A DNA stretch of 40,340 nt, from NCBI GenBank assembly GCA_019561555.1, contig JAHEQB010000105.1:1-40340 (forward strand). Direction: 5' to 3'. The position numbers and the translations under genes were made by a program. Shown here piece after piece: positions 1-40,340 of the stretch. The notes under the pieces were generated by a model that made no database searches, was not told the DNA's origin, and was given only the letters and a program-made list of their open reading frames with translations. How positions within the stretch are numbered: position 1 is the stretch's first letter; every line of letters starts with the position of its first letter. This DNA is from Methanothermococcus sp. SCGC AD-155-C09. GTDB lineage: Archaea > AGJL01 > Methanococci > Methanococcales > Methanococcaceae.

Positions 1-196
1 GGAGTGCTGCATCCTTCTGCTCTCTAATCTTTCTATTTAATTCTTCTTCTGATAAATGTTTTATAACCTTATAAATGCATTTTCCGCTCATGTTATTACG
101 TTGTTATATTTATAACATAAATATTTTATGTGATCATTACTTAATATATTCATGTTATTATATAAAGTATAGTTTAGATAATTATGTTCTTGACTA
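1..196 (-). mobile_element. Terminal part of an IS630-like insertion sequence; the rest lies left of the window
   Basis: Reverse complement of 1-196 matches 38576-38771 with about 6 mismatches by eye. Transposase ATG at 89-91 reads leftward (MSGKCIYKVIKHLSEEELNRKIREQKDAAL). TA at 197-198 is a candidate target duplication. Confidence 0.85.
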
Positions 197-643
197 TATT
201 TTTGATATCATATGTAATGAAGCAAGAAGATAAACGTGATTATCCCAACTTCCAGCAACCACATACTCCCCATTTGGAGTTATTGATACTGATCTAACAA
301 TACCATCTATCTTATACTCCCATAACAAATTCCCTTCTTTGTTGAAGAGGTAAACGTGATTATCCCAACTTCCAGCAACCACATACTCCCCATTTGGAGT
401 TATTGATACTGAATAAACACTACCATCTGTCTTATACTTCCATAACAACTTCCCTTCTCTGTTGAAGAGATAAACATTATAATCATCACTTCCAGCAACA
501 ATGTGTTCCCCATCTGGAGTTATAGATACTGATCTAACTCGATCATCTGTCTCATGCTTCCACAACATACTATATTCCTGAGCATGAACTACGTTAAACA
601 AACTTAGAGATAATAATAAACTTAACATTATTAATCTCTTCAT
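194..643 (-). pseudogene. Secreted WD40/PQQ-like beta-propeller repeat protein, truncated at its 3' end by the IS
   Basis: Signal-peptide-like N-terminus (MKRLIMLSLLLSLSLFNVVHA) and ~40-aa repeats (SVSITPNGEYVVAGSWDNHVYLF). The frame ends at a TAG formed at the IS boundary. Confidence 0.75.
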
Positions 644-4639: not shown

Positions 4640-4951
4640 ACAAAAATAAAATTAATCTAAATTCTAAGATATAAAAGAAAAAATAAATATTTAAAAAGAT
4701 AAAAGAAAAGTAAGTATTTAAGTAAATACTTAAGAAGTAGAAATCCCATACTACTTAAGGATATGAGAGAAAGCAGATACTTAAAAAGTAGAATCCCCTA
4801 CCACCATCTCCCTCCCTACAATCCAAGTACTGGACGTGCAGAGTAAATTCTTTAAGTATTAGATTACTATATTATAATAAGTTTAAATGTTGCATGTTTA
4901 TTATAATTTTTATGTTGTAATTATAAGTTTAAAATATTATGTATTTAACTA
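4640..4951 (+). repeat. IS630-derived MITE-like element, copy A (right TIR retained)
   Basis: AAATACTTAAGAAGTAGAAATCCCATACTAC.., second AAGTAGAATCCCCTACC.., AAGTACTGG core, ..TTTAAGTATTAGATTACTA.., ending AATTATAAGTTTAAAATATTATGTATTTAACTA then TA. Confidence 0.55.
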
Positions 4952-5010
4952 TAATAATAATTAATAATAATTTTTTTTATTTTAAATTTTTTATAATCTT
5001 TGGTGAAAAT

Positions 5011-10274: not shown

Positions 10275-10880
10275 TAATATCTCCCTTTAAATATGGTAGT
10301 CAAGCATTATTTTAAACTTAATTATGAAATAAAAGTAATAAAAATATAATAATAAAAAAATATAATTCTAATAATTACAAGAAATGCTCTAATTCCTTCT
10401 ACCTTAGGTTAATATGGCTATATAATTAATCCTGCCAAGGATTCTGCCTGCTCTCTCATGTGCTTAGGATTATAAGGATGGTAAGAAAAAACCCTATTTT
10501 TTATTATTTATTCCGTTTTAGATATTTAAAATCTTGGATTTTTCTATTTTATGATTATTTTTCTTTTAATTAATAATTTTTTTATTTTTTTTAATTATTT
10601 TTAAATTTTTTTTATTTTTTATTAATATTATATGTTATTTTATTATTAATTTTTTAATAATTATTGTTCATTTATTACATTCTTAAAATCAAGTTTTTTA
10701 TACATTGCAATAGTTTTATTTAAAACTAAATATATAATTAGGAATATATATTAAACCATTATTAATTTAAATTATCAATAACTTTTTATCCTGTTTATTT
10801 ATATTATTTATTAAGGTAATAAAACTAATAAAAATTATTAAATTAATAAAATTAAACCCAAGATAAAAAAAGGTGAAATT

Positions 10881-12101: not shown

Positions 12102-12224
12102 GGGGCATAAAATATATTAAAAATAATAAAAAATAAAAAAATAATTTAAAAAAAATTAAAAATAAAAAAATAAAATTAAAAAATTAAAAAAATAATAATA
12201 AAATAGAAAAATAATAAAATTAAT

Positions 12225-12411
12225 CTAAATCTTAAGATAAAAGGAAATAAATACTTAAAAAGATAAAGAAAAATAAATATTCAAAAAGTAGAAATTCCCT
12301 AACACCATCTCCCTTTCACCTATAACCCTAAGCACTGGTAATGCAGAGGAAGTCCTTTAAGTATGGGCCTACCCTATTCATAATAAGTTTAAAATACTAT
12401 GTGTTTTACTA
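12225..12411 (+). repeat. IS630-derived MITE-like element, copy B (right TIR retained, left end decayed)
   Basis: TACTTAAAAAG..GTAGAAATTCCCT..CCTATAACCCTAAGCACTGGTAATGCAGAG..AAGTATGGG.., ending in TAATAAGTTTAAAATACTATGTGTTTTACTA followed by TA. Confidence 0.6.
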
Positions 12412-12632
12412 TAATATAAGAATAAAAACAAATAAGGGTATTTATAGAACAATAAAACATCTTACAAAATACAAAACACTTAAGAAGGAATACATAAGTA
12501 TAAAAACCGATAAAGGTACAATAGGGGCCTTTAAAAAAATTTTACTACATAAAACACCCCATGGAGGGAGAAATATTTAAAGTTTTTAAGAGATAGGTTT
12601 ATAAAAATAAAAAAAATAAAAAAAGTGAAAAA

Positions 12633-13982: not shown

Positions 13983-14270
13983 TAAGAAATAATAAATACT
14001 CTCTCAGTACTGAACATTAGGATTAAAATCTATTGTTTTTTATAATTTTAGATTTCTATTTTTATTATATTCTCTTTCCTGAGTTTTTGCTTAGATTATT
14101 TTTTATTTTTTATATTTTTTAATTATTTTTTTATTTTATTTTTTAAAATTTTATTTTATTATTAATTTTTTTAATTATTTTATTTTTTATGAGGTTTTTA
14201 AATAAAATTAAAATATTATCTATCTAAATAATTTTTTAAACTATATATAGTATGATTAATGGAATAATTA

Positions 14271-14579
14271 TAGTAAAGCACATAATAATTTAAACTTATT
14301 ATAAATATAGAATCACATACTTAAAGGGTTTCCTCTGGACATACAGTGCTTAGGGGTGTAGGGGGAAGGGAGGTAGGTTATAGGATTTCTACTTTTTAAT
14401 TATTTACTTTCTTTTATTTTTCTAAATGTTTAATTTTTTTCTGTATTTTAGGATTTAGGTTATTTTAATTTTATTTATTTTTAATTTTTAATATTTTTTA
14501 ATTATTTTTTTATTGATTTTTTTATATTTTTATTTTTTTATATTTTAGATTATAGTTTAAAAAATTATGTTCTTGGCTA
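14271..14579 (-). mobile_element. IS630-derived MITE-like element, copy C (both TIRs present)
   Basis: Left end TAGTAAAGCACATAATAATTTAAAC, right end GATTATAGTTTAAAAAATTATGTTCTTGGCTA, both resembling the ends of the IS at 38576-39686. Flanked by TA (14269-14270, 14580-14581). No coding capacity. Confidence 0.7.
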
Positions 14580-14719
14580 TAAAAAGAATAAGAATAAAAA
14601 AATAAATAAATAATAAATTTATTAATATTTTATTTATATTATTTTATTTTATTTATATTATTTTGAATTATCAAAAATTTATATCTAATCAACTAATAAA
14701 AAAATAAAAAAAGGAAAAT

Positions 14720-17781: not shown

Positions 17782-20700
17782 GTTAAAATCAGACCATTGT
17801 GGGATGGAAACGGGGAGAAAATAGAAAAAATAGCCACAGGGACCTTGTTAAAATCAGACCATTGTGGGATGGAAACTCTCTTTTGTTAAATATCTCGAAG
17901 TTTGTGTTATTGCATGTTAAAATCAGACCATTGTGGGATGGAAACACATTAATATACCCTCAAAAAATAAATTTGAGGGTATGTTAAAATCAGACCATTG
18001 TGGGATGGAAACAATAAAATTGTTGCAACTTTTATATTTAATATACAAACGTTAAAATCAGACCATTGTGGGATGGAAACAAGGAATGTAATATTTATCT
18101 CTTTGTTTTTTACAATAGAAGTTAAAATCAGACCATTGTGGGATGGAAACAATGTAAAAATCTAATAATAGTTCATCTTCTTTACAATGTTAAAATCAGA
18201 CCATTGTGGGATGGAAACTATGGTTAAGTAAGTTAATAGGTTAATAATAACCTGTTATATGTTAAAATCAGACCATTGTGGGATGGAAACCTTTTTCTCC
18301 CAATGATATTAATGCTATTGCATTACTGGTTAAAATCAGACCATTGTGGGATGGAAACTTTGGGATAAGTAAATACTATTATTATAAATTTTATTTTCTG
18401 TTAAAATCAGACCATTGTGGGATGGAAACTTTGTTGGTTGCTCTTCCCTTGCCACTTTCTTTAATGCCAAATGTTAAAATCAGACCATTGTGGGATGGAA
18501 ACTTAATAACTTTAATGCCTTCCCGTATGGTATTAATCCTGTTAAAATCAGACCATTGTGGGATGGAAACTTAATAGAAACTCTGATATCTGCAAGAGAA
18601 CCTTCACAAGTTAAAATCAGACCATTGTGGGATGGAAACATATCTATTTTCAAGGTATCTTCTGAAATATTTTTTACGTTAAAATCAGACCATTGTGGGA
18701 TGGAAACACTTATAGTAGGGTTCTTTGTTTGGAGGTGGTTTTTATAAATGTTAAAATCAGACCATTGTGGGATGGAAACCATTACACTCCCGTCCATAAG
18801 GTTATCCAGGCGGGAGTGTTAAAATCAGACCATTGTGGGATGGAAACCCGCGCTATGTTTTTTTGTTAAAATTATAGGTAAATAATGTTAAAATCAGACC
18901 ATTGTGGGATGGAAACCAAAGAATCTTGCTTATTTGTATTTTGCATTTTTTTGTTAAAATCAGACCATTGTGGGATGGAAACATAGATGTTGTAAGTAAA
19001 ATAGTTGGGCATAGTGATGTTGTTAAAATCAGACCATTGTGGGATGGAAACTTTAAACTTAAAAAAGTCATGGAAGCAAAAAAGAAAGTTAAAATCAGAC
19101 CATTGTGGGATGGAAACAAATTAAATTTAGGAATCGGACATAATTCAAACCAAGTTAAAATCAGACCATTGTGGGATGGAAACAAATAGGGGTATCGAGC
19201 ACTTTATCTGCAAGTTTCATTGTTAAAATCAGACCATTGTGGGATGGAAACTGGCTCATTTACCAATGCCCCAATTGATGTAGAATATGTTAAAATCAGA
19301 CCATTGTGGGATGGAAACTTTATTTCTGCATTTATTTTATTCCTATCTTTTGACTTGTTAAAATCAGACCATTGTGGGATGGAAACGAAAATGATATTTG
19401 CACTTGTTCAGTAGATTTTAACGTTAAAATCAGACCATTGTGGGATGGAAACCAAGTTCTAGAAGTAGTAGTTCCTCCTCAAGTTCTAGTTAAAATCAGA
19501 CCATTGTGGGATGGAAACTCTATTCACCCCTTAGAATAGACATTAAGACAGCAGCAAGTTAAAATCAGACCATTGTGGGATGGAAACCATGTAAATACCG
19601 ACATAGGCGTGATTATCTAAGGGTTTAGTTAAAATCAGACCATTGTGGGATGGAAACTAGATAGGCACAAGACTTGCAACACCAGATAACAAGTTAAAAT
19701 CAGACCATTGTGGGATGGAAACTATTCTATGAACTTTTTACCTTTTGATTGAGCACGCCTTTGTTAAAATCAGACCATTGTGGGATGGAAACTATTCAAA
19801 AAAGAATTTAGATTTAAGAGTATGAATATTTAGTTAAAATCAGACCATTGTGGGATGGAAACCCAACCATTTTACAAATGCTGTACTCTCATTAATTAGA
19901 GTTAAAATCAGACCATTGTGGGATGGAAACTTACAATATGGAGCAATAAATACATTAAACATTGATATGTTAAAATCAGACCATTGTGGGATGGAAACAT
20001 TTCTTCCCATCTACGGTAGTTATTACCACATTGCCAGTTAAAATCAGACCATTGTGGGATGGAAACTTTTTCTACATCATCTGCTACGAATGGGGAAAGA
20101 ACAGTTAAAATCAGACCATTGTGGGATGGAAACAATAAATAAATACAATATTGGATTGGAATTTATTAAGGTTAAAATCAGACCATTGTGGGATGGAAAC
20201 TTAATTATTTTATTTTTTTCTTCATCAGTATATAATTTGTTAAAATCAGACCATTGTGGGATGGAAACTCTTTAATTTTTAAGAATTTAAATAATGATTG
20301 GAAGGAGTTAAAATCAGACCATTGTGGGATGGAAACACTTGGAGGCGAGATACTAAAAAGGTTCTTCAGAGAGGAGTTAAAATCAGACCATTGTGGGATG
20401 GAAACCAAGAGCAACAACAAGAGCAATTAATACAATAAGTATGTTAAAATCAGACCATTGTGGGATGGAAACATAAAATTAAAAGAATTTTCATTGTCAA
20501 TTATATATTCATTATCACGTTAAAATCAGACCATTGTGGGATGGAAACGCAATTATCTTATCATTGAGCAATTTAAAATAAGAGTTAAAATCAGACCATT
20601 GTGGGATGGAAACTATTTAATATCAAGATTTTCTACAAATAAAGTAAATATGTTAAAATCAGACCATTGTGGGATGGAAACTCTATTATATTTTTAACAT

Positions 20701-21071
20701 CCTGTATTGAATTCATTAGGTTAAAATCAGACCATTGTGGGATGGAAACTATCTTTTATTTTTTATTGTTAAAATCAGACCATTGTTGGATGGAAACTAT
20801 TATAATAATTAATATTATCTTATTATTTAATTTAAGTTAAAATCAGACCATTGTGGGATGGAAATATGATTATGTAAGTATCTCGTATAAATTTTTTCAC
20901 GTTAAAATCAGACCATTGTGGGATGGAAACACATGTTTCTGGAGGAACATATTCTGTAATTTAGTTCCTGTTGTGTTAAAATCAGACCATTTACAAGCAA
21001 AGGGAATAAATCGTAAAAATTCCGAAGGAATTTTGAATTGTGGAATATTTTTGTGATTATGGAATGGAAAC
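17782..21071 (+). CRISPR. CRISPR array: 47 near-complete 30-bp repeats plus a split 48th; consensus GTTAAAATCAGACCATTGTGGGATGGAAAC
   Basis: Repeats located by eye, starting 17782, 17847, 17916 ... 20836, 20901, with a partial at 20975. Spacers mostly 35-43 bp. The last units are degenerate. No cas gene in the window. Confidence 0.98.
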
Positions 21072-25388: not shown

Positions 25389-26012
25389 TATAAGGTTTAT
25401 GTTGATTAATTTTATAACCATAATATTTCGTAAATATAAATATTACCATTTTATATTATTAAAAATCTATATGTGGGATTATAAGCAAAAATAAACTAAT
25501 TTAATAAAAATAACAAATAGTATAAAATTTATCATTTTAAAAAAATTAGTATAATAGGAATAAAAATGAACAGTAAAAATAAAAAAATAAAATCTACAGG
25601 TGTATTAAATAAATAATAATTAAAAAAAATAATAAAATAACTATTTAAAAAAATTAAAAAATAATTAAAATAAATAATAATAAATTAAAATTTTAAATAT
25701 TTAAAAGAGCAGATATATATAAAAAATAAAAACCCTACTATTATTTTCCATGAATGCTCCTAAGCACTGAAGGAAGAATAGATTTCTTTATAAAACCGGC
25801 ATTATAAACTTCACATCATGTTAAAGTAGATATGGACTTGAAAGCATTCTCTTTTAATGTTTATCCTTTTCATTGTTTTTAGTATTATCCCATGTTTTAG
25901 TTATTATGTTAAAATGTAAGTTTAAAATGATATAAATAATATAAATAAAATTTTTTATATTAATAAAAATAATTTTAATTATATTTTATTTTAAAAATTA
26001 AATGGGATAAAA

Positions 26013-31066: not shown

Positions 31067-31367
31067 TGGTAAAACATTTTAAACTTATTTCGTATGTAGT
31101 AATCCCATACTTAATGAATTTCTCCTACATTTCCAGTGCTTAGGGGTATAGGGGGGCAGTAGTATGGGATCTCTACTCTTTAAGTATTTACTTTTGTTTA
31201 TCCTTTTATATAACATAATTTTCTTTATCTTAAATATTTATTAATAAGGTTTAAATTTTTTAATTGTTTTAATTATTTTAATTATATTATTTAATATTTA
31301 ATTATTTTTTAATTATTTTATTTTTTTATATTGTAAATATATGATTTAAGAAATATATTCTTGATTA
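31067..31367 (-). mobile_element. IS630-derived MITE-like element, copy D
   Basis: Ends TGGTAAAACATTTTAAAC and ATGATTTAAGAAATATATTCTTGATTA, each next to TA (31065-31066, 31368-31369). Shares the core CCTATACCCCTAAGCACTGGAAATGTAGGAG with copies A-C. Confidence 0.65.
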
Positions 31368-31395
31368 TAAATAAATTTATAAAAAATTAAATAAA

Positions 31396-35579: not shown

Positions 35580-35966
35580 AGATTTTAAAATACCTAATAA
35601 AAGAATAAAAACATAAAAAATCAGAAATCCCTTTATTATTTCCTTATACTCCTAAGCACTGAGGGAGTAGGTAATCCTTTAATGAGATGGCATTATGAAT
35701 ACCTTAGAGTATAGCCCTAAACAAAACTATTTAACTATTTCCTATTGGATATAAAGAAATAATAATTATAAAAATTTTAATTTAAAATAAAAAATAACTA
35801 AAACATAAATAGAAAAATAAGGTTTTAAAATACTTACCCTTGACAGAATGGCATTATAAAAGTTATACTGGGTTAAGGTAGGGGCTTAAGTATTTCTTTA
35901 TTGATATTTTTTATTATTTTTATTTATTATTTATTTAGGTTATAATTAAGATTATGTGTTTAGTTA
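35580..35966 (+). repeat. Diverged MITE-like element upstream of crcB (copy F)
   Basis: CTTATACTCCTAAGCACTGAGGGAG core at ~35644-35670; IS630-like end TTATAATTAAGATTATGTGTTTAGTTA then TA at 35967-35968. Confidence 0.45.
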
Positions 35967-38502: not shown

Positions 38503-38575
38503 AAGAGCATGTCTAACTTAAAATTTAATTAGGAAGATAATAATAAAAAAATAAAATAATAATTATTAAAAAATA

Positions 38576-39686
38576 TAGTCAAGCACATAATTATCTAAAC
38601 TATACTTTATATAATAACATGAATATATTAAGTAATGATCACATAAAATATTTATGTTATAAATATAACAATGTAATAACATGAGTGGAAAATGCATTTA
38701 TAAGGTTATAGAACATTTATCAGAAGAAGAATTAAATAGAAAGATTAGAGAGCAGAAGGATGTAACACTCCTTAAAAAAGGATTTTATAAAACACCCCTA
38801 CAAAGAAATGAATGTTAAAAAAGCAACAGAAGCAATAGGAGTTTCTAAGACTACAGGCTATGTATATCTAAAAAAATGGAATTCAGAAGGATATGATGGT
38901 TTACTTCCAAAATACGGAGGGAGACCATCCAAACTTACAAAGAATAATGGGGAAAGAAGAATATTCTAAAGGGAAAAGATTCATGGACAACAAAAGAAAT
39001 ACAGAAGTTAATTAGAGAAAAATTTAATAAAATACTCATTATATCATATCAGAAGGATTCTAAGATCTTTTGGCATGAAATATACTCCGCCTACCAGAAA
39101 GATTATAGAAAGCCAGATAATGCTGAAGAGATTTTAAAAAAAACTTGAATAATGTAGAAATCAATGATATAATAGTTATTCATTGATGAGATGGCAGTTG
39201 AAGGAAATGTAAATAGAACAAGATTCTGGAAGGACTGGATTTGTTAGAAAAGTTGCTATTATCTTAAAGTTAAAGTTATAGGGTTCTACTCTTTAAATGG
39301 AAAGAGTGCATGGATTTCCCAGAGAGCAACAAGATTGAAGACTTTATATCTTTTCTCCGGAGGATAAGGGAGGTTAATCCTGAGAAGAGAATTGTTGTTA
39401 TCTTAGATAATTTTAGAACTCATCATGCAAAGAAGGTTAAAGAAGAATCTGAGAAACTGGACATCCAGTTAGTATATCTCCCCCCTTACTCTCCAGATTT
39501 GAATCCTATAGAACATAAATTGGAAAAGTGTTAAAAGATACATTTCTGAGGAATCTCCATTGAATATAAAAAAATTAAAGGAAATAATATCTAAATCTTT
39601 CAAAAAATTAACAAAATCCATATCATTTGCAGGGAGTTATTAATAAATTTTTAGGTTATGAGTTCAGAGAATTATGTTCTTAACTA
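38576..39686 (+). mobile_element. IS630-like insertion sequence, ~1.1 kb, with degenerate transposase
   Basis: TIRs TAGTCAAGCACATAATTATCTAAACT / TAGTTAAGAACATAATTCTCTGAACT, flanked by TA. IS630 C-terminal motif VVILDNFRTHHAKKVKEESEKLDIQLVYLPPYSPDLNPIEH. Confidence 0.88.
38681..39686 (+). pseudogene. IS630-family transposase with several frameshifts
   Basis: Fragments in changing frames: MSGKCIYKVIEHLSEEEL.., VKKATEAIGVSKTTGYVYLKKWNSEGYDGLLPKYGGRPSKLTKN, MDFPESNKIEDF..PIEHK, VKRYISEESPLNIKKLKEIISKSF. Confidence 0.85.
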
Positions 39687-39760
39687 TAATTTTAGAGATA
39701 TTCGACTGGATTAATATACCTTTTGAATCCATAGGTATAACAAAAGAGGATTCACAATAT

Positions 39761-40340
39761 TAAGGTAATAATAAAGGCATTGATCATAAAAGAATTCGAA
39801 AAACTATCCCTGAGATCTCCAGAGATAAGAGTAAATCAAATTCTCGGAGTGAGAATTGATCATTCTGTCCTACACTTCTGGGAGAAAAAACTATCTCCTT
39901 ATATGGAAGAAATAATTAATATGGTTCTGAAAAAACTCCATATACTAACATATTCTAAAAGTTTTATAGATTCTACAATCATTACGAATAGAAAAAAAGA
40001 AAGGATTGAAATACATGTAATATCTAGATATAACAAAGAACTTAGAACCCTTTTCGGATCGCCGCCTCTATAACCACTTACGAGACTGAAAGTATTAAAA
40101 AACTGCCAGAAGGAAAGGGATACTTCTACGCTGACGGAGGTTACGATAGTAAAAAAGTTTTAAACACTAATTGTTAGTAAAGGGATATTTGCCACAGGTT
40201 AAACCTAGAAAAAACAGAGCAAGGGGATATGGAGCAAGAATTAGAGATAAAATCTTCGATAAAAATGAATATAAAAAAAGAGGAATTTGTGAGGGGTTCT
40301 TCGGAGGTATAATGAACTGATTTGGAGATAGAATCCCTTG
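39761..40340 (+). pseudogene. Degenerate IS5/IS4-type transposase, running off the window
   Basis: IDSTIITNRKKERIEIHVISRY; in other frames YFYADGGYDSKKV, YLPQVKPRKNRARGYGARIRDKIFDKNEYKKRGICEGFFGG. Confidence 0.7.

Follow-up and report, generated by a model that had tools for sequence, protein, structure and literature searches.

The window, by which we mean the whole stretch of 40,340 nucleotides analysed here, is contig C102 of the 1.73-Mb assembly of a heat-loving, methane-making archaeon of the genus Methanothermococcus (genome G000). Using a full-length profile, built from 25 full-length copies, together with a core profile, we found in it seven members of one family of intergenic MITEs, alongside two copies of an IS630-family element whose TIRs match those of the MITE. 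The features are as follows.

1–198, minus strand: left end of another IS630 copy, truncated where the contig ends and 97% identical to the copy at 38574–39688
4642–4953, minus strand: copy A, a subfamily-1 MITE, degraded or composite, with its left TIR at 4927–4953; antisense to both neighbours
10410–10618, plus strand: copy of the older subfamily 2, in a divergent context
12167–12413, minus strand: copy B, a subfamily-1 MITE with its left TIR at 12387–12413; antisense to both neighbour genes
14269–14581 (including the TA duplication), plus strand: copy C, a full-length subfamily-1 MITE; element proper 14271–14579
14271–14295 (14269–14295 with TA), plus strand: TIR-L of copy C
14317–14405, plus strand: core of copy C
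about 14410–14550, plus strand: T-rich tail of copy C
14556–14579 (to 14581 with TA), plus strand: TIR-R of copy C
25715–25781, minus strand: subfamily-2 core with two plus-strand genes around it, and so antisense
31073–31368, plus strand: copy D, an older subfamily-1 MITE between divergent genes
35600–35686, minus strand: copy F, a core of the older subfamily 2; antisense to both neighbour genes
38574–39688, plus strand: IS630-family element; DDE_3 transposase disrupted by several frameshifts

The unit at 14271–14579, described in the initial annotation as non-coding, bounded by TIRs and flanked by TA, is exactly that: the span is the element without its TA duplication, the sequence reading TATAGT from 14269 and CTATA to 14581 with the TA duplication on either side, and TIR-L and TIR-R showing 2–3 mismatches against the family consensus. 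Copy C lies on the strand of both neighbour genes, which is the rarer, 'sense' orientation. At least five related elements had been claimed for the window, and the seven found by profile, two of which (10410–10618 and 25715–25781) were absent from the earlier list, bear this out. Some details changed: copy D, said to match the IS at both ends, is a real family member (profile score of 94 bits) but its left TIR is eroded; copies A and B do each keep one TIR, but it is the left TIR of a reverse-oriented copy rather than the right-hand one; and copy F is related, as proposed, but belongs to the older second subfamily. TIR matches with seven or fewer mismatches were absent from the reversed window, so AT-richness does not account for the TIR match. 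The window also carries a CRISPR array at 17785–20930, with 47 repeats (AAAATCAGACCATTRTGGGATGGAAAC-like) and 45 extracted spacers of about 38–46 bp, which gave weak AT-rich matches only when compared with the sampled DNA of three genomes.

The ends of the MITE had been reported to match those of the IS, and the TIRs are indeed common to both, agreeing at about 24 of 27 positions, and over 49 bp the right ends are up to 92% identical. However, the sequence quoted as the right end of the IS, TATAGTTTAGATAATTATGTTCTTGACTATA, had been misplaced; it is the left end of the second, reverse-oriented copy at 1–198, and the right end of the element at 38574–39688 is AGTTCAGAGAATTATGTTCTTAACTATA. The transposase of the window element matches DDE_3 at 4.5e-20. 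The genome contains at least three full-length IS copies with the same TIRs and about a dozen partial ones, many at contig ends, and only one copy, on contig C32, looks near-intact. Its two open ORFs meet at an A8 run and, read as one 340-residue protein with N-terminal HTH domains, match DDE_3 (3.6e-27) and HTH_32 (1.5e-15). The run at the frame change (TTTTAAAAAAAACTTG) is common to all G000 copies covering the site (L067–L073), which suggests a programmed frameshift, although a defect would look the same in sequence. Adjoining the IS copy, at 39780–40340, a degraded ORF without a Pfam match at 0.001 reads like another transposase (e.g. YFYADGGYDSKKVLN) and runs off the contig end. At C96:30485–30616 there is a 132-bp derivative of the IS that has lost its interior, and a second, shorter element class of about 90–130 bp, consisting of two IS630 ends joined (internal deletions), occurs on C96 and also on C98, C84, C44, C8 and C99.

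The family unit is non-coding and about 300 bp in size, with TIRs of about 27 bp that match the IS630 element of the same genome. Subfamily 1 begins with a left TIR, TATAGTCAAGGACATAATAATTTAAAC, followed about 45 bp further in by the core, then a T-rich tail and a right TIR, TTTAAGAAATTATGTTCTTAACTATA; the left TIR is present at 72 of 113 subfamily-1 cores, mostly at one fixed distance, and at none of the reversed flanks. Subfamily 2, the older of the two, extends further on the left, with its TIR about 140 bp from the core; the two subfamilies have CAGTGCTTAGGAG and GGATTTYTACTTTTTA in common, together with the conserved core CAGTGCTTAGG...GGATTTCTACTTTTTA. Runs of five or more T residues average 7.1 per copy on the plus strand and 0.4 on the minus strand. 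The core is G-rich in an AT-rich genome and the loop CAGTGCTTA can be drawn with stems about it, as would suit a structured non-coding RNA represented by genes or their copies; against this, there was no Rfam match, pairing around the loop equalled the shuffled expectation in 132 and 113 copies, no helix appeared among the top covarying pairs, and copy C folded no better than its shuffles (z = −0.47). We consider a structured RNA very improbable. RNAalifold gave a long pairing, and the stems at CAGTGCTTA were persuasive on inspection, but no excess of pairing emerged from within-pair shuffles.

A first scan of the genome gave at least 40 strong copies, and the core profile gave 167 matches in 660 kb of G000 and none in the reversed sequence, corresponding to a density of about 253 per Mb and, by extrapolation to the genome, about 437 copies, figures that are approximate because part of the 660-kb sample was chosen for holding matches. 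Profile matches make up at least 4.8% of the sampled bases. Element cores inside ORFs numbered none in G000, none in G017 and one in G013. A plain DNA search of the relatives returned mostly poly-T noise outside G013 and G017, and the core model was therefore used, which gave 93 matches in G013, 85 in G017, 35 in G014, 14 in the complete genome G015 and five in G008. Named matches to the core were from Methanothermococcus okinawensis isolate SZUA-1385. The core model found no match in the six other genomes of the genus or in the other genera of the family, and beyond the family the order gave a single marginal match.

The target consensus of 40 full-length copies is the palindrome AAT-TA-ATT, with TA at both ends in 35 of the 40. 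A BLAST search of the junctions against G017 was drowned in AT-rich noise, and a gene-anchored comparison was used in its place. An exact empty site for the copy on C71 was found in the sister species G017, the two reading CTTTATT-TA-[element]-TA-ACTTTT and CTTTATT-TA-ACTTTT, such that the species differ by the element and one TA. Of 43 orthologous gaps compared between G000 and G017, 16 are occupied by an element in at least one of the two; in most of these a single genome has it, which in two cases is G017. Gaps of 29–76 bp in G017 measure 549–1156 bp in G000, and the pgm–purB gap, about 60 bp long and free of the element in G017, measures 532 bp here, where it contains copy B. The repeats are a genuine and dense IS630-type MITE family of Methanothermococcus that inserts at TA and comprises two subfamilies. 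The central proposal of the initial annotation, that of intergenic MITEs having IS630-type TIRs and TA as their target, is upheld by the copy number, the sharp boundaries, the exact empty site, the polymorphism between sister species and the DDE_3 transposase. Further copies, empty sites in a sister species and a TIR similarity far above the control are the opposite of the three outcomes that it had named as counting against such a family.

The initial annotation also had the family mobilised by the IS at the window edge. On the strength of the TIR identity, this element, although its copy in the window is disrupted, likely mobilised the young G000 copies in trans, and it may have mobilised the older ones too. 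A clear IS copy was found only in G000, and not in G013, G014, G015 or G017, all of which have the MITE core, so the older copies may have had another helper. We think it possible, if less likely than not, that the older copies, together with every copy in G013, G014 and G015, owe their movement to another IS630-like transposase that has since been lost, the window-edge IS being a later relative that shares the TIRs. The absence of a clear copy from the other genomes with the core favours such a helper, as does the interior of the MITE, which is not derived from that of the IS. However, the close agreement of the MITE and IS ends given above speaks for the window-edge element, and the assemblies of G013, G014 and G017 are incomplete (81, 64 and 54%, respectively), and IS repeats are easily lost from such assemblies.

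The copies are strongly biased in orientation. Between genes on the same strand, antisense copies outnumber sense copies by 84:18 in G000, 26:0 in G017 and 13:3 in G013. When orientation was counted per intergenic region, so that clusters were not counted twice, regions with only antisense against only sense copies numbered 62:10, 24:0 and 12:2, respectively; this gives 98 against 12 for the three genomes pooled (p = 6e-18, a value not fully independent because the species share some old copies) and p = 3e-10 for G000 alone. In tandem gaps that are short in G017 but hold a copy in G000, the copy was antisense in every case seen. In G000 and G017, convergent gaps have an element density at least equal to that of tandem gaps and divergent gaps are the poorest; in G013, which has few copies, divergent gaps are not depleted.

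The asymmetry in T runs, about seven on the plus strand against 0.4 on the minus strand, makes selection against U-tract terminators facing gene starts the best explanation of this bias. The IS630 transposase would cut and insert the MITEs in trans, and the T-rich plus strand of each copy would act as a one-way U-tract terminator; a copy with its 3' end towards a gene start would cut off transcription of that gene and be lost, while antisense copies would be tolerated, even within former operon gaps, and this filter would leave the orientation bias. In a member of the same family, Methanococcus maripaludis, high termination is obtained with at least two U4 tracts together with aCPSF1 (PMC8716108), and internal terminators reduce the expression of downstream operon genes (PMC10450193). 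The densities, with convergent gaps rich and divergent gaps poorest in G000 and G017, also fit a rule by which no tail may point at a gene start. We hold it highly probable that an IS630/Tc1-type MITE family inserted in trans by an IS630 transposase, combined with a one-way terminator filter, jointly explains the observations. For the bias taken by itself, we favour purifying selection against one-way terminators over insertion preference with moderate confidence.

Insertion preference would mean that the bias arises as the element inserts, transcription or DNA asymmetry guiding the transposition complex with no selection involved. The youngest copies show no weaker a bias (10:2 among those scoring at least 200 bits) than older copies do (36:6 at 70–130 bits), which speaks for such an origin; selection would have had to act fast. 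Nevertheless, the target is palindromic and the mean AT skew of the flanks is small on both sides, and an insertion-direction bias by itself does not predict the scarcity of elements in the divergent gaps of G000 and G017; we therefore think this origin unlikely.

Alternatively, the antisense element might be useful: the gene downstream would obtain a promoter or a regulated 5' leader from the minus strand of the element, and selection would keep the orientation. Between same-strand pairs, about seven in eight elements do have their 5' end towards a gene start, and the core is conserved between both subfamilies. However, convergent gaps, which offer no gene to serve, are not depleted of elements, the distance from element to start codon is broad, insertions are polymorphic between sister species, and even within the genus the element has a patchy distribution. 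In older full-length subfamily-1 copies, the values against the consensus are 0.90–0.93 for the core, 0.81–0.88 for most other segments and 0.92 for the T-tail, a small difference; in orthologous copies shared between genomes, the core does not consistently evolve more slowly than the remainder of the gap. The core thus shows no sign of host-level constraint, and a useful leader seems to us improbable. We have similarly little expectation that the core of the two subfamilies is functional rather than passive cargo, for example as a site for the transposase or a host protein or as a regulated 5' leader read from the minus strand, in which case the antisense bias would reflect that function across hundreds of genes.

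MITEs of this kind are already known from RUP with IS630-Spn1 and from the SM elements of Sulfolobus; what is notable here is the density and the one-way orientation. RUP of Streptococcus pneumoniae, with about 110 copies per genome and with IS630-Spn1 as its proposed mobiliser in trans, is likewise, compared by kind only, a short, AT-rich, intergenic non-coding MITE with TIRs, a target-site duplication and an IS630 link (PMC3049150). RUP is shorter than 200 bp, whereas the Methanothermococcus element is archaeal, about 300 bp long and has a T-rich one-way tail, an estimated two to four times the copy number and a strong antisense bias. SPRITE, also of S. pneumoniae, is a terminator-like intergenic repeat whose placement has been explained by the avoidance of transcription disruption (PMC3049150), but it has a long stem and a T tract, is enriched at gene 3' ends and lacks a known IS partner, whereas our element has no supported stem and a clear IS630 TIR. 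By description, SM1–SM4 of Sulfolobus solfataricus are similar in being archaeal MITEs that rely on resident IS elements, with 25–44 copies per family (PMC10969869). This is far fewer than in Methanothermococcus. SM1 pairs with the IS630-type ISC1048. ERIC, REP and Correia elements also occur in hundreds of intergenic copies able to affect transcript ends, sometimes in an orientation-dependent manner (PMC3049150, PMC10969869), but they differ in TIRs, targets and hosts, and ERIC and Correia act through RNA structure and RNase sites.

An archaeal genome in which such a family reaches about 250 copies per Mb, with the antisense orientation favoured 8:1, constitutes a large natural experiment on the tolerance of U-tract terminators. 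Each copy would in effect be a one-way terminator in a known gap for which sister species supply the empty site, so that rules of archaeal termination and polarity could be derived from transcript data. Much of the AT-rich DNA left blank between annotated genes in this lineage is also accounted for by the family. Three or four copies are found in some single intergenic regions, as head-to-tail and nested clusters (C79:98052–98501 and C17:5966–6908), probably because the TATA ends of the element are themselves TA targets.
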